Assembly (NCBI GenBank): GCA_028281005.1 | Contig: JANQKS010000102.1 | Coordinates: forward strand, 62,001-126,000 | Origin: Pseudomonadales bacterium | Lineage (GTDB): Bacteria > Pseudomonadota > Gammaproteobacteria > Pseudomonadales > Azotimanducaceae | Length of the DNA: 64,000 nucleotides | Direction of reading: 5' to 3' | In this document: positions 4,508 to 24,020 of the stretch, in pieces | Numbering within the stretch: position 1 is the stretch's first letter | Layout: the number at the start of each line of letters is the position of its first letter | The notes under the pieces: model-generated | What the model was told of the DNA's origin: nothing | Databases searched by the model: none | Seen by the model: only the letters and a program-made list of their open reading frames with translations | Made by a program: the position numbers and the translations under genes

Positions 4508-6421
4508 ATGCAATACCCAGATCACTTTGATGTCATCGTAGTAGGCGGCGGGCATGCCGGTACCGAAGCCGCAGCCGCGGCTGCGCGTATGGGTGTGAAG
4601 ACGCTGTTGCTGACTCAGAGTATCGAAACCATCGGCCAGATGTCCTGTAATCCGGCGATCGGTGGCATCGGCAAAAGCCACTTGGTGGCTGAAATCGATG
4701 CCATGGACGGCATCATGGCGCGGGCCACCGATCGCGCGGGTATACATTTTAAGGTGCTTAATGCCAGTAAAGGCCCCGCGGTGCGCGCCACGCGGGCGCA
4801 GGCGGATCGAGCGCTTTACAAAAACGCGGTCCGTGATCTGTTAGAACATCAGGATCACTTACATATCTTTCAGCAGTCGGTGGTGGATTTCCTGATCGAT
4901 GGGGATCAAGTCACGGGTGTGCAAACGCAGATGGGTTTGACGTTTCGTTGCCATGCGATTGTGCTAACCACAGGCACTTTCCTTGGTGGTAAAGTGCATA
5001 TCGGGACACAGAACCATCCCGGCGGTCGCGCCGGTGATGCACCTTCCATCGCACTGGCGGAACGCTTGCGTGCGCTGCCTTTTCGGGTCGGTCGGTTAAA
5101 AACCGGTACGCCGCCACGCATTGACGGGCGTACGGTGGATTTTAGTGTGATGCAGGTTCAAGCGGGGGATGATCCGCGGCCGGTGATGTCAGCGCTGGGT
5201 AATGCCAGTGATCACCCGCGCCAGGTTGACTGCCATATTACCCGCACCAACCCAGACACCCACGCGGTGATACAAGCGAACTTAGATCGCTCCGCCATGT
5301 ACAGCGGCGCCATTGAAGGTGTCGGGCCACGCTACTGTCCGAGCATAGAAGACAAGGTGGTGCGCTTTGCCGACAAAACCGCGCACCAGATTTTTGTCGA
5401 GCCGGAAGGTCTCAATACCACTGAGCTTTATCCCAACGGCATCTCCACCAGCCTGCCTTTCGATGCGCAATTACAATTTGTGCGTAGCATAGAAGGCTTC
5501 GAGCACGCGCACATCTCACGGCCGGGTTACGCCATCGAGTACGATTTTTTTGACCCGTGCGACCTGCAATACTCGCTACAGACCAAGGCACTCGCCGGTT
5601 TGTTTTTTGCCGGGCAAATCAACGGCACGACCGGGTATGAAGAAGCAGGTGCGCAAGGTCTACTGGCCGGTATTAACGCAGCCCGATTGGTGCAGGGGAA
5701 AGCCGCTTGGGAGCCACGTCGTGATGAGGCGTACATCGGTGTAATGGTCGACGATCTCATCAATCTGGGCACCAGTGAACCCTATCGCATGTTTACCTCG
5801 CGCGCAGAATTTCGGCTGCGCCTGCGTGAGGACAACGCGGATCAACGCCTTACCGAACGGGGCGCAGAGCTCGGTGTGGTGGGTGCCGCGCGGGCCGCAC
5901 ACTATCAAGAGAAGATGGTGAACTTAGCGCAACTACACCAAACTGTTGCTCAGACTTGGGTGGCGCCGGGCTCGGATCTAGCCGGTGCCTTAGGTGTCAC
6001 GCTACAAAAGAACACCGAACTGGCCGCTATTCTGCGTCGTCCGGAAGTGTCCACAGCCGCATTGCAGCGCGCCTGGCCTGAACAATCGCTGGGGTTACTT
6101 GAACAGGTGATTATCGAAACTAAGTACGCCGGCTACATAGCACGCCAGGACGAAGAGATCGCCAAAATACGTCGCCATGAAGGGATGACACTCCCGCAGC
6201 TCATGGACTACGCCGACATTGACGGCTTGTCCAATGAATTGCGGCAGAAACTGGCCGCTGCGCAACCCAGCACCCTGGCGCGGGCGGCGCGCATCCCCGG
6301 TATGACACCCGCGGCGTTATCAATCTTGTTGGTCCATGCCAAAAAACAACACGGTCAAACCGCCTCCAGCGGGGCAACGGAGCTGGCGCCATCCACACAA
6401 CCCAATAAGGTGATGCACTGA
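4508..6421 (+). CDS. mnmG: tRNA uridine-5-carboxymethylaminomethyl modification enzyme MnmG (GidA)
   Basis: FAD-dependent partner of MnmE. 637 residues. The dinucleotide-binding motif [12 protein letters not shown] starts near residue 11; [14 protein letters not shown] and the [22 protein letters not shown] and [20 protein letters not shown] blocks are all conserved. C-terminal helical domain ([19 protein letters not shown]) binds MnmE. The last 15-20 residues form a Ser/Thr/Pro-rich tail. Its stop codon overlaps the region where rsmG must start, suggesting coupling. Confidence 0.97.
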
Positions 6422-7086
6422 GGGTTGATAAAGCGGCGCTGCAACAAGGCGCCGCTGGCCTGGGACTGACACTGGGCGACTCACAGCTTACACAGTTGCT
6501 GCAGTTCGCAGCTTTGCTGGAGAAATGGAACAAGTCTTTTAACCTTGTGTCGAGACAGGACATTCAGCGTCTGGGCGAGCGTCACCTGCTCGACAGTTTA
6601 AGTGGCGCACAGTGGGTGTGGGGCAACCACGTTATGGACCTCGGTTCTGGCGCCGGTCTGCCGGGTGTACCGCTGGCCGTGGCCTTGCCGCAGACGCAGT
6701 TTTTATTGTGTGATCGCAGTCAGCGACGCGTTCGTTTCTTGCGTCAAGTCATACAGGCTCTCGGACTCGACAATGCCGCGGTGTGGTTAGGTGACTACGG
6801 CCAACAATATCCGCCAAACGCACACTTCGACACGGTAGTGGCGCGTGGTGTGGCGACAGTTGAAGAACTTTGGGCTATGGTGCAGCCCCAGTTGGCAGCC
6901 GACGGTAGGCTTTTGGTGTACGAACGCACACGGGTGGAGCCGGTGGAAGGGGCGCATGAAGAATCTCATGAAAACAAACGAGCAAAACCATTTAAGCTCG
7001 AACAAGTTGCCGTCTCTCGACATGTGGCTGCCATTCCGGGTATCGAGCGCACCCACACTCTGGTCTGCGTTGAGCATGCAAGGTAA
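6418..7086 (+). CDS. rsmG: 16S rRNA (guanine527-N7)-methyltransferase RsmG
   Basis: AdoMet-dependent methyltransferase modifying G527 of 16S rRNA (formerly GidB). The motif I region [20 protein letters not shown] and the [14 protein letters not shown] block identify it. Start is uncertain: homology requires residues upstream of the TTG at 6496 (the stretch before [13 protein letters not shown]), and the frame stays open back to a TAA at 6406. The only near-start codon in the right place is CTG at 6418, with AAGG at 6407-6410 seven bases before it and overlapping the mnmG TGA. I use 6418 (222 residues); a conservative start is TTG 6496. Family usual length is about 205-215. Confidence 0.9.
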
Positions 7087-7897: not shown

Positions 7898-8806
7898 TTG
7901 AGTAAAAAGAGACTAGGCCGAGGATTAGACGCGCTGCTGTCAGAGCGGCCGGTAAACGCAAAAGCGGACGACACCCCAGCGGTAGCAGCAGCGGTGGACG
8001 GCGCTGCTGCGACCAACTTAGATACCGGTATTGCGGTCGCCTTGATACAACCCAGCCCTTACCAGCCACGTCGCCATTTTGATGCGGACGCTCTGCAGGA
8101 GTTAGCGGATTCGATCAAAAGCCGTGGTCTGTTGCAACCCGTGGTGGTGCGGGAAAGGCCACAAGGTGGCTATGAGCTGATCGCGGGCGAGCGCCGTTGG
8201 CGTGCAGCCCAGCTGGCGGGTATCGACACCATACCGGCGCTGGTGCGCACCGTCAGCGACGCGGATGCGTCGGCGCTTGCCCTCATTGAAAACATGCAGC
8301 GTGAAGATCTCAACGCCATGGAAGAAGCGATGGGGTTAGCGCGCTTGCGCGATGAGTTTGAGTTGACCCAGCAACAGATCGCGGATGCGGTGGGTAAATC
8401 TAGAGTGGCCATTGCCAATCTGCTGCGTCTGATGAACCTAGGCACCGTGACCAAGGGATTGTTGGAAAGCGGCGGCCTGGAAATGGGCCACGCGCGGGCG
8501 TTGTTGGGCCTTGAGGGCCTGCAACAGGACCAGACGGCGCAGCAAGTTGTGGATCAAGCACTGTCCGTGCGTCAGACAGAAAGTCTGGTGCGAAAGCTGA
8601 ACGATGGTGCGGGTCAGGTTGCGCGTAAAACTTCGCCTGGTAACAAAGACCCTGACACGCTGCGTCTAGAACAGAAACTGACCGACACCATCGGCGCGCC
8701 GGTCAGCATAAAACACTCGTCTGAGGGTCATGGCGCGCTAACTATCCGTTACTCGAGTTTGGACGAGTTAGACGGTGTACTCAAACACCTCGGTTTAGAC
8801 GAATAA
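7898..8806 (+). CDS. parB: chromosome partitioning protein ParB
   Basis: parS-binding CTPase clamp of 302 residues. The N-terminal KKRLGRGLDALLS peptide is the ParA-contact motif; then the ParB/Srx domain with IQPSPYQPRR and the box GERRWRAAQLAG, a helix-turn-helix (TQQQIADAVGKSRVAIANLLRL), and a C-terminal dimerisation domain. TTG start at 7898. The start region is a perfect 11-base tandem duplication (7886-7896 and 7897-7907), which puts two TTG codons in different frames. The operon ends at the terminator 8877-8899. Confidence 0.96.
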   Translation: MSKKRLGRGLDALLSERPVNAKADDTPAVAAAVDGAAATNLDTGIAVALIQPSPYQPRRHFDADALQELADSIKSRGLLQPVVVRERPQGGYELIAGERRWRAAQLAGIDTIPALVRTVSDADASALALIENMQREDLNAMEEAMGLARLRDEFELTQQQIADAVGKSRVAIANLLRLMNLGTVTKGLLESGGLEMGHARALLGLEGLQQDQTAQQVVDQALSVRQTESLVRKLNDGAGQVARKTSPGNKDPDTLRLEQKLTDTIGAPVSIKHSSEGHGALTIRYSSLDELDGVLKHLGLDE

Positions 8807-17794: not shown

Positions 17795-19624
17795 ATGTGC
17801 GGCATCGTCGGAGCAGTAGCAGATCGAAACGTACCTCCCATTCTTTTGGAAGGGCTCAAGCGCCTTGAATACCGCGGCTATGATTCTGCGGGTGTTGCGG
17901 TGGTGGGCAGTGACGGTGAACTCAATCGTCGCCGCAAGGTGGGCAAAGTCCAAGAGTTGGTCGACAGCATGGAGCAAACCCCGCTCACCGGACGTACCGG
18001 CATTGCGCACACGCGCTGGGCGACCCATGGTGTACCGGCGGAGAACAACGCGCACCCGCATGCGTCCAATCGGGTGTGTGTGGTCCACAACGGTATTATT
18101 GAAAACTTTGAAGAACTGCGCGAAGAGCTCAGGGCCCAGGGGTATGAGTTTGCTTCCGAAACCGACTCGGAGACCATCGCACACCTGATCGACGCCAATC
18201 TGGCTGCAGGGTTAGATTTACTGGAGGCTGTGCGCACTAGCGTTAAACGCCTGGAAGGCGCCTATGCGCTAGGGGTGGTGTGTAAAGACGACCCGGATCG
18301 CATCATCGCCGCCCGCGCGGGCAGCCCGCTGGTGATCGGCAAAGGGATCGGCGAAAACTTCATCGCGTCGGATGTATTGGCCTTAAAGCCGGTCACCGAC
18401 CGTTTCATTTTTCTTGAAGAAGGTGACCTGGTGGAAATCACCCGCGGCTCTATTTCCATCTGGAACATGGATGACGAGTCTGTCATACGCTCGGATGTGC
18501 GGGTCGAGCTGGGCCACGACGATGTGGACAAAGGCAACTATCGCCACCACATGCAAAAAGAGATCTTCGAGCAGCCCAAGGTGCTACACGATACCCTTGA
18601 GGGGCGTATCGGGCGGACCCAGGTGCTTGAGCAGGCGTTTGGTGTCAAAGCCAAAAATATTTTCGACCAAGTTAAAGCAGTGACCATCGTAGCCTGCGGT
18701 ACCAGCTATTACGCGGCGTCGGTGGCGCGCTATTGGATCGAAGAACTGGTGGGTATTCCGTGCCAGGTAGAGATCGCTTCGGAGTTTCGCTATCGGCCCC
18801 TCGCGGTGATCCCTAACAGCCTGTTTGTGACCATCTCCCAATCCGGCGAAACCGCGGATACCTTAGCCGCGCTGCGCATTGCCAAGGACGCGGGATTTTT
18901 TGCCACCCTGACCATTTGTAACGTGCCTACCAGCTCCCTGGTGCGGGAAAGTGATTTGGCTTTGATGATCCAAGCGGGTACCGAGGTAGGGGTTGCTTCC
19001 ACCAAGGCTTTCACCGCGCAGCTGACCGATCTCATGTTAATGACGCTGTTGCTGGGGCGCCGCCATGGTATGGCACCGGCGTGTGAGCAAGAGTTGGTCA
19101 AAGGATTACATGTGTTGGATAGTCTGGTGGATGAGGCCTTGGGGCTGGACGAGGTTATCCAGCGGATGTCTGAGCGGTTTATCGAAAAGCACCACGCGCT
19201 GTTCCTAGGCCGCGGCACCATGTTCCCGGTGGCCATGGAAGGGGCGCTGAAGCTCAAAGAAATATCCTACATACACGCGGAAGGGTACCCCGCGGGTGAA
19301 CTCAAGCATGGGCCGCTTGCCTTGGTAGACGATGACATGCCGGTCATTGCGGTCGCACCCAATAACGAACTGTTGGAGAAACTGCAGTCCAATTTGCAGG
19401 AAGTGCGGGCCCGCGGCGGTGAACTGTTTGTGTTTGCCGGGGAAGACAGTGGCTTCCGCGAAGAGCCGGGTGTCACCGTGATACCTCTGCCCAAGGTGAA
19501 CCCAATCTTGGCGCCGATTGTGTACGTTGTGCCCCTACAGTTGTTAGCCTACCACGTGGCGGTGTTGAAAGGCACCGACGTGGATCAGCCGCGAAATCTG
19601 GCTAAATCCGTAACGGTGGAATAG
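17795..19624 (+). CDS. glmS: glutamine--fructose-6-phosphate aminotransferase (isomerizing)
   Basis: Forms glucosamine-6-phosphate from fructose-6-phosphate and glutamine. 609 residues, same as E. coli. MCGIVGAV at the start provides the catalytic Cys after Met removal; the glutaminase domain has GRTGIAHTRWATHG. Two SIS domains follow (ACGTSYYAA; SQSGETADTLAALR), and the C-terminal DQPRNLAKSVTVE is the universal ending that doubles as the Tn7 target-recognition sequence. AAGGAA lies about 15 bases before ATG 17795. No glmS ribozyme is expected in this group, and the 46-base leader is too short for one. Confidence 0.98.
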   Translation: MCGIVGAVADRNVPPILLEGLKRLEYRGYDSAGVAVVGSDGELNRRRKVGKVQELVDSMEQTPLTGRTGIAHTRWATHGVPAENNAHPHASNRVCVVHNGIIENFEELREELRAQGYEFASETDSETIAHLIDANLAAGLDLLEAVRTSVKRLEGAYALGVVCKDDPDRIIAARAGSPLVIGKGIGENFIASDVLALKPVTDRFIFLEEGDLVEITRGSISIWNMDDESVIRSDVRVELGHDDVDKGNYRHHMQKEIFEQPKVLHDTLEGRIGRTQVLEQAFGVKAKNIFDQVKAVTIVACGTSYYAASVARYWIEELVGIPCQVEIASEFRYRPLAVIPNSLFVTISQSGETADTLAALRIAKDAGFFATLTICNVPTSSLVRESDLALMIQAGTEVGVASTKAFTAQLTDLMLMTLLLGRRHGMAPACEQELVKGLHVLDSLVDEALGLDEVIQRMSERFIEKHHALFLGRGTMFPVAMEGALKLKEISYIHAEGYPAGELKHGPLALVDDDMPVIAVAPNNELLEKLQSNLQEVRARGGELFVFAGEDSGFREEPGVTVIPLPKVNPILAPIVYVVPLQLLAYHVAVLKGTDVDQPRNLAKSVTVE

Positions 19625-19647
19625 TTTCGAACGGATGGTTTTCTAAG
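19589..19647 (+). other. attTn7: attTn7-type attachment region (3' end of glmS)
   Basis: The last 36 bases of glmS encode NLAKSVTVE, the segment recognised by TnsD in the Tn7 family. The inverted-repeat end of the island begins exactly 23 bases after the TAG, the classical Tn7 insertion distance. The conservation and the distance are seen; use as a target is inferred. Confidence 0.6.
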
Positions 19648-19816
19648 TGGTTTCTGGTAATTAAAAGCGTCGGATAGCATTTAAAAGCGTCGGACGATTC
19701 CGATAACCTCATGTTTCTATGAGGAATGCAGTCTAAAGTTTGCAATTAAAAGCGTCGGAAACTGCCCCCTGGATTCTGGCAATCAAAACTGTCGGGTCGC
19801 ATTGAAACGCGTCGGA
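19648..19816 (+). repeat. glmS-proximal end: five 16-base repeats
   Basis: Copies at 19659 (AATTAAAAGCGTCGGA), 19679 (ATTTAAAAGCGTCGGA), 19744 (AATTAAAAGCGTCGGA), 19781 (AATCAAAACTGTCGGG) and 19801 (ATTGAAACGCGTCGGA), all in the same orientation. Pairs 1-2 and 4-5 have starts exactly 20 bases apart, about two helical turns, as expected of sites bound by a multimer. The outermost copy is inside the terminal 27-base inverted repeat. Confidence 0.8.
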
Positions 19817-19963
19817 GATCGGTATCAGTGACCGCTTTGGCCACGAGCTGCCTCTCATCCTGAACGGTTGGGCGGCTGCTCACGACCCACATCAGACAGT
19901 TGCCCACACGGTAGGAAGTGTCACAATCGAGTAGGACAAGCATGTTTCAGAGGATGTTACCTG

Positions 19964-20716
19964 GTGTTCTGGCTCATTGTTCGCTTCATTGTGTTCTTCG
20001 CTGCGCTTCTTGCGTTCCTCCCCGGTGCGTATCTGATTGATGCTGGCTACGTAAAGCTCGGCGCAGCTATGGTGATCATCACTCTTCTCACATGGGTGGT
20101 TTTTGGGGCTGCCCTTTTCATTCAGCGGCGGCGCGATCGACAGAATCAAGACGAAATCGTAGAAGCTCGAACCGTTAGTGCTTCAGTTGATCCGATTCAA
20201 GTATTCAACCAGGGTGTGTCGTCATTCTCGGAAGGTGAATTCAAAAAAGCGGGGATGACGTTCTCTCGTCTTTTAGAAAACGATATCGACGACCAGTTGA
20301 GGATGGTGAGTGCGTATGCCTGTCATCTGTGTGAAGAAAAGACTGGAACGGACTTCAGTATCCCAAACGACCTGGCTGAGCGTTCCGATCAGGTTGGAGC
20401 TAGCTATGCGACTCACACAGCAGCAGGTTTATTCCTTGATGAGGGTCGAATCGTCGCGATTCATGATGGACAGCTTGATGTCCTAATGGGCAGTGATAGC
20501 TTTGAACTCGTCTTCGCATCAATGTTGGCTGTGCTTAGCGTAGAAATTTTTTACGTTTCGAACCGAGGCAAACGGATGTATGTTGACGGTGAAGCGATGG
20601 AAGAAGTACCAACAGGTAAATATGCTTTCGTTTTGCGGATAGCGACGGAAGCTGGGAGCGGAAGCCATCCCCCTGTCGAAATGCCAGATGGTGGATTCCC
20701 CTTAAGCCTCCCTTGA
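19964..20716 (+). CDS. unrecognised membrane protein (island cargo)
   Basis: I do not recognise this protein. About 250 residues if it starts at GTG 19964, which has AGAGGA nine bases before it; the frame is open further upstream, but there it runs through the repeat-end region. Two hydrophobic segments at the N-terminus (FWLIVRFIVFFAALLAFLPG and AAMVIITLLTWVVFGAALF) are followed by basic RRRDRQNQ, so the rest is probably cytoplasmic. The soluble part has a TPR-like segment (FNQGVSSFSEGEFKKAGMTF) and a beta-rich C-terminal half. Codon use and base composition are less GC-rich than in the flanking core genes, consistent with acquired DNA. Confidence 0.65.
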   Translation: MFWLIVRFIVFFAALLAFLPGAYLIDAGYVKLGAAMVIITLLTWVVFGAALFIQRRRDRQNQDEIVEARTVSASVDPIQVFNQGVSSFSEGEFKKAGMTFSRLLENDIDDQLRMVSAYACHLCEEKTGTDFSIPNDLAERSDQVGASYATHTAAGLFLDEGRIVAIHDGQLDVLMGSDSFELVFASMLAVLSVEIFYVSNRGKRMYVDGEAMEEVPTGKYAFVLRIATEAGSGSHPPVEMPDGGFPLSLP

Positions 20717-20956
20717 TACGATCCCAACGCTCTTTACGCAGGATTCGGATGTTTGCCGTTGGCCGAAATCGAACGACCCGCAGCGGACGCTGTAGTTGTA
20801 GGAGCCTGCCACGCGGGCGACCATATCTGATAGTGTGCAACTGGCCCAATGGGGTCTTTCGTCTGATCGCCGAGAAAGCCGGCCTGAAATTGGAGTTTCA
20901 TGGTGGTAACCGAGCCTAACCGTTTTGCGGATAGAGTCGCTGAGGCTTTCTTAGTC

Positions 20957-21448
20957 ATGGTCTGTTCGGTAGCTACCGTGCGCTGGATCTCCGCCGCAGT
21001 TGCTGCCACTGCCATTTCCACTGCTCTTTTGGGATGCGACCGATCATCCGAGACTCTTCTTGAGCCGGACACCACGTTCTACGGATATGTCACCGTCTGG
21101 GAGATCTACCACAACCCGGCACACATAGGCCTAACTGGCCGCCAACCAGTAATCACTCTCAAGAACGCAAATACGGAGGTAATGCTGCTCATCGGCCCCG
21201 ATGTCGAACTCTTGAACCTCACCGACGACAGCGGTCGTCCGGTGTGGTCCTTCAATGACATTCATCGTGCCGACGGCCTTCTCAATTACTTTCCCCCCGA
21301 GCTCGCCGACGAGAACGGCAGGGTCAAGATCACATCCGTTCAGGGAGTCGAAGACTGGCTCTGGGTGACACGTATTGAGCGGCTCGAGGAACTCGATGAG
21401 GCTGATGCTCGGGCCGTTATTGATTCCGGAGCGCTGTTTCCTGATTAG
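20957..21448 (+). CDS. unrecognised putative lipoprotein (island cargo)
   Basis: Not recognised. With ATG 20957 the protein has 163 residues and begins with a signal sequence (VRWISAAVAATAISTALLGC) whose lipobox ALLGC predicts lipidation at the Cys near residue 27. An upstream ATG at 20900 would add 19 residues in front of the signal, which is less likely. The mature part is acidic, with YVTVWEIYHNP and VEDWLWVTRIERLEELDEADA. Same strand as the preceding membrane-protein gene, with a 240-base gap. No transposition or defence motif seen. Confidence 0.6.
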   Translation: MVCSVATVRWISAAVAATAISTALLGCDRSSETLLEPDTTFYGYVTVWEIYHNPAHIGLTGRQPVITLKNANTEVMLLIGPDVELLNLTDDSGRPVWSFNDIHRADGLLNYFPPELADENGRVKITSVQGVEDWLWVTRIERLEELDEADARAVIDSGALFPD

Positions 21449-21784
21449 GACATACAGCTGAAAACGGCTATCGCGTGGCTCAATCGATCTGCTCGTTATT
21501 GTCTATCCTCGACCAGTTGAAATCGAGCGTCCGCGTCTGGCCGTCTAGATTTATTCGGGCGGGAATATAGCTGCAGTCCGAAAGGCGTCGCCGGGACCTA
21601 TTCTGGATGTAGCGACTTTGGCTTGCGTGATTTGGGGCGGATCTGACCGAATTTGATCGTGCATCTGTATATTGGGATCGGTGCCGGGCGTACCTGGTTA
21701 GTACGGTCTGTGCATTGATCGCCTGCGCCGGTCGGTCGCGCACGTCGCCAAAGTATCGGTGAGGCACACCTTCAGTCGGCCTGG
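21449..21784. other. non-coding gap between convergent island genes
   Basis: The space between the putative lipoprotein gene and the minus-strand zinc-ribbon gene. A 95-codon minus-strand frame (21480-21767) exists but has a basic, low-hydrophobicity sequence with no family resemblance or ribosome-binding site. I see no RNA gene or terminator of note. Confidence 0.4.
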
Positions 21785-23095
21785 CTAGATCCCATAGTAA
21801 TTTGCGTCCGGGATGATCTCGCCATCGCGGAACGTAGTCGCGGGCACAAGGCTCAAGGGCCTGATCTCATCGAAGAAGGCGGTAGCAGAGCCCGCAGAGC
21901 GCGCGAAAATAAGCACACCGAGGTACGGGCCCGAAAAAGATGTGCTCAGGTTCCGGTGGATCGTATGCACACACTTGGGCGTATCGGTCCACATCGCTGA
22001 CGCAAAAGCGGGTATCCGATCCGTATAGGCCAAAAGACCGTCGTCGCATATTTCAGACAGGCGGTTAAGCGGGCTGTTCTCGTTCGCAGGTACGACATGC
22101 CACCCGGCGTGCCCCATACTCTCAAGAAGACCGGCAACCTTCGTAACACCGCCAGCGGCAACTTCCAGATCGCCATCAGAAAACGTACAGGTTCCCCGGC
22201 TCGATTCGAGTGCCTTTCGTACAGCCTGCGCAATATCGCGCCCGTAGAACATGCTGTCGTCGAGTTGGTCGTAGTCGAAGACGAAGATTGCCGTGTCGGA
22301 ACTCGGTAGGCTCATATCGCCGGTGTACACGTCATTGAAGTCCGAATTGCCGCAAGCGTAGTAAGTACTGCCAAGCGCCCAGAGTCCAATGGGTTCAAAG
22401 ATGCTCGGGCCGGACCTTTGATCGACCATGCCATAGAGCATCGCGCCCGGGTTGGGGTCTTCTACGGTGAAGACCTTGAAGTTCCTAAAACCGCGCAGAC
22501 GGCTGATGCGTCTTGCGTTGTGCTTGAGCAGAAGCGCGATCTCCGCTTCTCCGCCAGTGTATAGCTTGTCCGCGGCCCACACCCACTTGCAGTCTTGATA
22601 GGCCTTTTCTATCTGTTCTGTCGTCATTGCTGGCAGGTTGGGCACAGCTCGATCGAAGAGAAGTTTCACGGCTTCGGCCGGGTCCTTCGTGTACAGCGGC
22701 AGGGGCGCGTCGGAGTCGTGCGATGCTCGCGGTGTAGATTTCGCATGAGACCGTTCCTCTATCGCTATCGCGGCCGCGTGCCTTGGCGGATTGGACTCAT
22801 CCGGCAACATTGCAGCCCAAGCAAAAAACGAAACGACTAATGCGATGACGAGCGCGACAAATAGTGAAACAGGCTCGAGTAGCCAGCTCGACGGTCCATC
22901 CAGCACTAGCCAGATGCCTGTGTATAGGCCAAAGAGAATCACGGTACCCATAATCACACAGCCTTTTGGAGGCGCTTCGGCCTGCTGTACAGCTTTGCCG
23001 CACTGAGCGCAACGGCCGCGGTACTTCGCGGCCGTCTGTGGCAGGATCAGACACCCGCATTCGACGCATGGAATCTTTTTACCTGAGTTTGGCAT
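21785..23095 (-). CDS. unrecognised zinc-ribbon membrane protein (island cargo)
   Basis: Not recognised. 436 residues. The N-terminus is a zinc ribbon with two CxxC pairs (CVECGC at residues 10-15; CAQCGK near 29-34), followed by two membrane helices (VIMGTVILFGLYTGIWLVL; LFVALVIALVVSFFAWAAML), a charged linker, then a soluble domain of about 300 residues rich in aromatic and acidic residues. The start codon ATG at 23095 has CAGGAG six bases upstream on the minus strand, a strong ribosome-binding site, which supports real expression. The opposite orientation to the other two cargo genes suggests a separate transcript. Confidence 0.75.
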   Translation of the reverse strand: MPNSGKKIPCVECGCLILPQTAAKYRGRCAQCGKAVQQAEAPPKGCVIMGTVILFGLYTGIWLVLDGPSSWLLEPVSLFVALVIALVVSFFAWAAMLPDESNPPRHAAAIAIEERSHAKSTPRASHDSDAPLPLYTKDPAEAVKLLFDRAVPNLPAMTTEQIEKAYQDCKWVWAADKLYTGGEAEIALLLKHNARRISRLRGFRNFKVFTVEDPNPGAMLYGMVDQRSGPSIFEPIGLWALGSTYYACGNSDFNDVYTGDMSLPSSDTAIFVFDYDQLDDSMFYGRDIAQAVRKALESSRGTCTFSDGDLEVAAGGVTKVAGLLESMGHAGWHVVPANENSPLNRLSEICDDGLLAYTDRIPAFASAMWTDTPKCVHTIHRNLSTSFSGPYLGVLIFARSAGSATAFFDEIRPLSLVPATTFRDGEIIPDANYYGI

Positions 23096-23462
23096 CGCAA
23101 CTCCTGGTTCTTATGTTCACACATTCATAGAGATCGTTACGATCTACAAATGAAAGGCTATTCTGAGTGTAGAGACTTTTTGCGCGCCTGGGGAAGAGAT
23201 CCTCCGGTTGTCGCTTACTCAGTGTCGGGAACAATAGTCGCGTCCCGCCTAACGGTGAGGTATCTCCCACAGCCAGATGGTGCGCCAGCCAAACCGACGA
23301 GCAAAGAGACTGCATTCTTCGACACGGCGCACTGTCTGGTCGCCCTTCCGCTATGTTAGCGGAAGGGCTGTGTTTCCCCGAGCCTGGCGTTCGAGCGACG
23401 GCTTTTCGAGTAACCGGCCATTTTCCCTCCGACACTTTTAATTACAGTAATCGCACGCGAGC
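23096..23462. other. non-coding stretch with 12-base hairpin
   Basis: Between the start of the zinc-ribbon gene and the DUF3291 gene. It holds a perfect 12-base stem with a 3-base loop (23342-23353 / 23357-23368; GCCCTTCCGCTA and its complement) and the inner distal-end repeat at 23428-23443. It should also contain the promoter of the leftward gene, which I cannot place. No convincing coding frame. Confidence 0.5.
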
Positions 23463-23521
23463 ATGACGTCACTTCAATGGGTTAGGCGCGATTTTCCGAC
23501 AACATTAATTACCCGAAACCA
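23428..23521 (-). repeat. distal end of the island: two inverted copies of the 16-base repeat
   Basis: Read on the minus strand, the outer copy is AATTAATGTTGTCGGA (23495-23510) and the inner copy AATTAAAAGTGTCGGA (23428-23443), inverted relative to the five copies near glmS. The outer copy is part of the 27-base terminal inverted repeat ending at 23521. Confidence 0.7.
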
Positions 23522-24020
23522 GTTTTGGCACATAGCGCAGATCAACGTGGGAACGATTAGTTATCCCACCGATGATCCACGCATGCATGGGTTTATGAGT
23601 CGCCTCGACGAAATGCATGCATTGGCCGAACAAAGCCCGGGATTCGTCTGGCGGTTGCAGCGAGAAAGCGGAAATGCCACTGACATTGACGTGGGTGGCG
23701 AGCCGTTATTCTTAGCCAATATGTCTGTGTGGGAATCCATTGAGTCGCTATTTGCCTACGTTTACAAAACGACTCACCGTGATGTCATGGTCCAGCGCCG
23801 GCATTGGTTCGAAAAACCGCGCGGCCTGTATCAGGCGTTGTGGTGGATTCCAGCGGGACATAGACCGCCAGTAGAAGAGGGTTTAGGACGTATCAAAATG
23901 CTTGAGGAGCAAGGCCCTTCTCGCTTGGCTTTCAACTTCAAGACGCCTTATCCCATGCCTGGGAGCGATGCGGCAACAGACCACCTAAAACCAGAGGGTC
24001 ATTGTTCCGGCTGGGATTAA
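23463..24020 (+). CDS. DUF3291 domain-containing protein
   Basis: 185 residues. From about residue 22 onward (WHIAQINVG, DDPRMHGFMSRLDEMHALAEQ, SPGFVWRLQ, ANMSVWESIESLFAYVYKTTH, RRHWFE, LWWIPAGHRP) it is a clear DUF3291 protein, a small dimeric alpha/beta-barrel-like family related to antibiotic-biosynthesis monooxygenases; function unknown. The first 20 residues (to MTSLQWVRRDFPTTLITRNQ) have no counterpart in the family and are encoded by the distal end of the island. The native start seems to have been replaced by the insertion. It may be expressed from sequences in the element or be silent. Confidence 0.8.
   Translation: MTSLQWVRRDFPTTLITRNQFWHIAQINVGTISYPTDDPRMHGFMSRLDEMHALAEQSPGFVWRLQRESGNATDIDVGGEPLFLANMSVWESIESLFAYVYKTTHRDVMVQRRHWFEKPRGLYQALWWIPAGHRPPVEEGLGRIKMLEEQGPSRLAFNFKTPYPMPGSDAATDHLKPEGHCSGWD

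Follow-up and report, generated by a model that had tools for sequence, protein, structure and literature searches.

A transposase-free gene-carrying island after glmS and its relatives in gammaproteobacterial genomes

A block of 3,874 bp with both ends present (19648-23521), which starts 23 nt after the stop codon of a presumed glmS gene, shares its end architecture with 18 places in 12 other genomes, carries cargo that differs from theirs and lacks a recognised mover gene of its own, and the distance between glmS and the end recurs in seven of these genomes. The block lies in a 64-kb stretch of Pseudomonadales DNA, hereafter the window. It is probably a non-autonomous, gene-carrying transposable element that was placed in trans by an attTn7-type pathway and belongs to a family whose members come mostly from the order of a Woeseiaceae MAG.

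The island in the window

The upstream gene (17795-19624, plus strand; an ORF of 609 aa) was named glmS from its sequence, and its 3' end presumably serves as the target signal. A query made from the C-terminal part of its product gave a GlmS-like match in 33 of 40 genomes of the genus. Positions 19648-19674 and 23495-23521 form an inverted match of 27-nt ends, identical at 22 of 27 positions, and in the output of the repeat finder the pair reaches 30 nt at 80%. The first-pass annotation had reported the same identity and the same 23-base distance from glmS, and both values were reproduced on recomputation. It had also pointed to TGG ends and to the lack of an obvious target duplication, which agrees with TGG at both termini and with the absence of any direct repeat abutting the window borders. 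These borders (19648 and 23521) are consistent with the ends seen in other copies. The GC content of the island (54.1% vs 56.0% in the remaining window) is not distinctive, and an Rfam scan of 19500-23700 gave no match.

The direct 16-base repeats previously described inside both ends are real, as AATTAAAAGYGTCGGA with up to three mismatches has eight matches in the 64-kb window, seven of them at the two ends, whereas 100 shuffles averaged 0.68 matches and never exceeded 4. The motif occurs at 19659, 19679 and 19744 and, weakly, at 19781 and 19801; on the opposite strand it occurs at 23428 and, weakly, at 23495. The left end (19648-19760, plus strand) comprises the terminus TGGTTTCTGG and the first three of these sites, and it aligns with the left end of a copy in the Woeseiaceae MAG (L048) with identical spacings of 20 and 65 nt. 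The earlier description had missed a second, degenerate left end (19769-19831, plus strand; TGG at 19770), which starts 10 nt past the third site and differs from the consensus terminus at 5 of 27 positions. Perhaps this is the remnant of an older element, a newer one having inserted behind it and a deletion having followed, in which case elements would have been stacked here; alternatively, a single end may carry five natural sites. The right end (23428-23521, minus strand, with the terminus at 23521) has two sites, a second amendment to the earlier description; the inner site (23428-23443) is good, the terminal one (23495-23510) poor, and their spacing of 67 nt equals that in L048. Each end of the window element thus has at least two sites.

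Three ORFs lie between the ends, the first (19868-20716, plus strand; 282 aa) having an uncertain TTG start and, by eye, two hydrophobic stretches, the second (20900-21448, plus strand; 182 aa) a lipoprotein-like start by eye, and the third (21785-23095, minus strand; 436 aa) N-terminal CxxC pairs and hydrophobic stretches, again by eye. Their initial description as unrecognised genes still holds, since none of the three has a Pfam match at E 0.001, and NCBIfam and PADLOC returned sub-threshold matches only. No convincing relative of the third ORF was detected in 96 other genomes (one match, E 2e-4 over 42 residues), and its structure prediction, made without relatives, was unusable (mean pLDDT 39.7). 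The island is followed by a DUF3291 ORF (23463-24020) whose ATG sits within the right end. As its Pfam domain starts at residue 24, just past the island border, the insertion may have supplied a new start in place of the original one.

Copies in other genomes

In the window's own genome, no other array was found with the motif at up to two mismatches, and two extra single matches with two mismatches did not exceed what the reversed-pattern control gave. The exact two-copy pattern was likewise absent from the 96 other genomes searched as relatives. A gapped pattern scan of the contig collection returned three stretches, of which L048 shares the left end, here 19 nt past its glmS, and has a matching right end. 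The other two were rejected, L047 being an array beside two near-identical genes that look transposase-like by eye, and L049 an in-frame coding repeat. Further copies were sought with two profiles that include no glmS sequence and no more than 8 nt of flank, namely R1, a sequence-only profile of the left end, and R2, a profile of 11 ends. R1 detected a second copy in the L048 genome and, at E 0.01, matched 8 of 296 genomes in the order of the Woeseiaceae MAG; R2 at E 0.001 matched 12 of 396 genomes of that order. In the final tally G694 was kept (E 0.006 in the R1 search; its end is of the right type and has both sites, E 2e-9), and G569, which appears in both sets, was dropped as a short tandem motif without a terminus; it carries tandem GGTGTCGGATAGCATCTGA units at about 9178-9211 of L085, weakly matched by both profiles.

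Among 381 genomes of the order to which the window's genome belongs, R2 (5 of 381 at E 0.01) gave a single convincing copy, that of the window, the four other rows, at E 0.002-0.006, being discarded because they are at chance level for 381 genomes. The same was true of R1 in the class of the window's genome (369 genomes, with 4 of 369 at E 0.01), where the weak rows for G374, G380 and G453 were discarded after inspection. G453 contains an array of TTAAAGGGGTCGGATAC-like units (1243-1560 of L052), whose letters resemble the end sites and whose arrangement is different. No match to the left ends of the window and L048 was found in the plasmid collection, and each of three patterns returned 0 stretches from viral contigs.

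Altogether, ends were located at 19 places in 13 genomes, with one place in the window, four in G462, three in G508, two in G628 and one each in G495, G575, G756, G694, G686, G648, G1184, G651 and G465. All 12 other end-bearing genomes were drawn from the order of the Woeseiaceae MAG, and we infer that the window copy came from that side. Both ends are present at 4 of the 19 places, and contigs often stop near the others. The complete elements measure 3,874 bp (window), 4,346 bp (L048), 3,523 bp (L078) and about 3,194 bp (L083); L077 has a doubtful partner end at 8265, with 8 mismatches. An end site of about 18 nt, (G)GTAATTAAAAGYGTCGGA, lies behind the terminus TGGTTTCTGG, and left and right ends differ consistently and face inward. 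Termini across the copies read TGG, TGC, TGT, TGA, TAG or CGG, in most cases TG followed by a variable base. L048 (ACAG) and L078 (GAGG) are bordered on both sides by exact 4-bp direct repeats; L083 has no exact flanking repeat, with agreement at 4 of 5 positions. The putative site arrays resemble the transposase-binding arrays of the Tn7/Mu/IS21 group.

The end starts 19-23 nt after the glmS stop at eight of the 19 places, each in a different genome, the distance being 19 nt in L048, G575 and G756, 20 nt in G628 and G651, and 23 nt in the window, G1184 and G465. As seven other genomes share ends at this distance with other cargo, the spacing in the window is no coincidence. Clear left ends face glmS in four of the eight (window, L048, G575 and G1184), and the glmS-side ends of G756 and G628, which score higher with the left profile than with the right, look like left ends that lack sites. 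The type of the glmS-adjacent ends in G651 and G465 is indeterminate, and there is no clear right end among the eight. Within the genus of the window's genome, none of 23 usable glmS loci has an end within 100 nt (the best candidate has 12 mismatches in 27), and no close-relative empty site is usable because the DNA 3' of glmS differs within the genus. The remaining 11 of 19 places are away from glmS, for instance between genes taken by eye for recG and ubiA (L083), 33 nt downstream of a transporter-like ORF (L131) and 32 nt downstream of a hipA-like gene (L163). In L048, the stretch 3' of the island (5690-6449) holds AACTCCGTCACTT-type repeats, what appear by eye to be the last codons of atpD, and a second atpC-like gene; atpD-atpC is also found upstream of glmU-glmS.

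Cargo and candidate movers

The interiors of the 19 loci (59.6 kb) contain 70 ORFs of at least 80 aa, the inner border being arbitrary in single-end copies. A blastp comparison among these ORFs at E 0.001 gave one match only, spanning 25 residues. In L048 the cargo comprises an AraC-type regulator, a short-chain dehydrogenase, an aldo/keto reductase and a hydrolase. Two copies encode Rce1-like proteases, and elsewhere there are regulators, oxidoreductases, an aminotransferase, a glutathione transferase, a GFA enzyme, an acetyltransferase and numerous unknown proteins. A Pfam scan of the 70 ORFs, in three fully listed parts (31, 22 and 17), detected no tnsA, tnsB, tnsC or TniQ-type families, no IstB, no IS21-type rve, no Mu-type transposase and no Y1 family. 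The search proposed in the first-pass annotation, for the array near tnsB- or istA-like genes in the rest of the genome and in relatives, yielded 18 further places and no Tn7- or IS21-type mover gene beside the ends.

IS-type transposases or fragments occur near three copies, with an IS30-type rve gene and a DDE_Tnp_1 gene at L131, an IS110 transposase at L161, and an IS481/IS3-like fragment at L163 (6778-7314) about 1 kb inside the end, where the contig stops 17 nt later. The L163 ORF has no Pfam match and a weak NCBIfam IS481 match (E 9e-7) far below the cut-off; it could belong to a mover. All of these were set aside as candidate movers because each stands beside a single copy. In the window's own genome, rve was found at seven places, six of which were typed, with IS3 or IS481 models matching best and one of the six over the cut-off. 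The same genome contains two different IS481-type transposase genes in tandem (L040/L042, G000:C124:3414-5033). Among seven end-bearing genomes searched, four have rve genes, at five places, and G495, G575 and G628 have none; the four places typed are IS30 (two), IS3 and IS481-like. Several typed rve genes matched IS21 models weakly, all far below the cut-off.

Of 296 genomes from the order of the Woeseiaceae MAG, 16 contain TniQ, and none of the 12 end-bearing genomes does; G1184, one of the 12, was probably outside the 296-genome draw. Seventeen TniQ regions (4-20 kb) and 19 short loci contained neither the ends nor glmS, and the TniQ regions were ruled out as donors on this ground. A helper might sit on a plasmid or a phage, or might have been an element since lost. 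Since the assemblies are mostly fragmentary, its absence is weak evidence.

Relation to known elements and mode of movement

TnsD reads the 3' end of glmS for Tn7, Tn7-family termini are TGT...ACA, and the ends of mini-Tn7, which lack a transposase, can be moved in trans. To our knowledge, the site sequence of the present family is unrelated to that of Tn7. According to PMC2918618, Tn7 inserts about 20 bp past the glmS stop in a single orientation and generates a 5-bp target duplication. The 23 nt in the window fit this habit, as initially proposed, and the repeated sites in each end, if they bind a transposase, would be a further likeness to Tn7 and mini-Tn7; unlike Tn7, the family has elements without tns genes, termini of mostly TG plus a variable base, and flanking repeats of 4 bp where these are seen. 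The original label of a Tn7-like island stands for the attTn7 position and not for genes or termini. Tn7-like working at attTn7 is supported by position, and membership in Tn7, failing on genes and termini, is unproven.

MITEs, mobile insertion cassettes and the Tn3-derived TIMEs also have ends without a transposase and are moved in trans, which they share with the present elements as transposase-free forms. As far as we know, their ends are different and they are not described as aimed at glmS. Such elements are treated in PMC4133298 and PMC10969869. Titles and abstract openings on glmS or attTn7 elements and on transposons of Woeseiaceae described no transposase-free glmS family among the matches listed. 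The suggestion that the block may represent a distinct family is the best-supported part of the first-pass interpretation. Its view of a non-autonomous or decayed member that may be moved by proteins encoded elsewhere is sustained as to the lack of a recognised transposase; the searches did not find the moving proteins.

Direct sites behind TG, asymmetric ends, short flanking repeats and the fixed place after glmS are compatible with a DDE transposase of the Tn7/Mu/IS21 group and a TnsD-like selector acting in trans. In the proposed mechanism, a transposase encoded on another element would have bound the end arrays, brought the two ends together and linked them to the chromosome, while a TnsD-like partner reading the 3' end of glmS would have set many copies 19-23 nt past the stop, with the left end oriented towards glmS; the remaining copies would have been placed by a less specific route. 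The missing helper, the 11 places off glmS, the scarcity of two-ended copies, the lack of flanking repeats around the window copy and L083 and the two untyped ends beside glmS (G651 and G465) count against this explanation, as would the L163 fragment if it belongs to a mover. Present-day activity is doubtful because the copies have diverged and many are short, and the copy in the window may have lost its mobility.

More tentatively, the elements may form a new transposase-free family moved by a non-Tn7 system that acquired its own glmS (attTn7) selector, shuttling cargo of a few kilobases between gammaproteobacterial lineages. One conceivable mover is an IstA/TnsB relative, as yet undescribed, carried by transient plasmids or phages, and the elements would be akin to natural counterparts of mini-Tn7.

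It is unlikely that the copies are remnants of full Tn7-like transposons that lost their tns genes independently and never moved in trans. The place after glmS is that of Tn7, several ends are eroded and the window has a decayed second left end, all as expected of remnants; however, the four two-ended elements are compact (3.2-4.3 kb) and free of tns genes, and in the 296-genome screen TniQ and the ends were never found together. Similarly improbable is an IS21-like (IstA/IstB) helper with an acquired selector giving the glmS preference, Tn7 being uninvolved. IS21 ends carry L1/L2 and R1/R2 repeats and a terminal CA (PMC10122671), which is matched here by TG...CA termini and at least two repeated sites per window end, together with short flanking repeats. 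Against such a helper, the elements lack istAB, with no istA- or istB-type ORF among the 70, and the typed rve genes are IS3, IS481 or IS30 by best match; moreover, the family has a fixed glmS target at 8 of 19 places, and no target selector is reported for IS21 (PMC10293859). That the repeats are an intergenic family chancing to follow glmS, with cargo swapped by homologous recombination instead of transposition, is very improbable, for although many copies are one-ended on short contigs and G453 and G569 have similar-looking short arrays arranged otherwise, the left and right ends are constantly different and inward-facing, their distance from glmS is nearly constant, two copies have exact 4-bp flanking repeats, and ssDNA folding of four ends gave no significant hairpin (z -1.7 to 1.6), which, together with the 70 ORFs free of Y1, also separates them from REP elements with a Y1 transposase.

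If an attTn7-type pathway acting in trans is indeed responsible, the attTn7 safe site also serves dispersed small islands that carry only cargo and are moved by a helper, which would account for some of the variation in gene content after glmS in these bacteria. The ends provide a compact probe for the helper and the target selector.

Scanning the window for promoters gave no promoter-like site in the part inside the last end site. At several other ends (L065 7410-7530, L080 2418-2545, L077 9020-9145 and L131 377-500), a common stretch like TAGAATGACGG...CTGACCC lies about 50-100 nt inside the last site, L082, L076 and L161 being different there, and this stretch is possibly an inward promoter.
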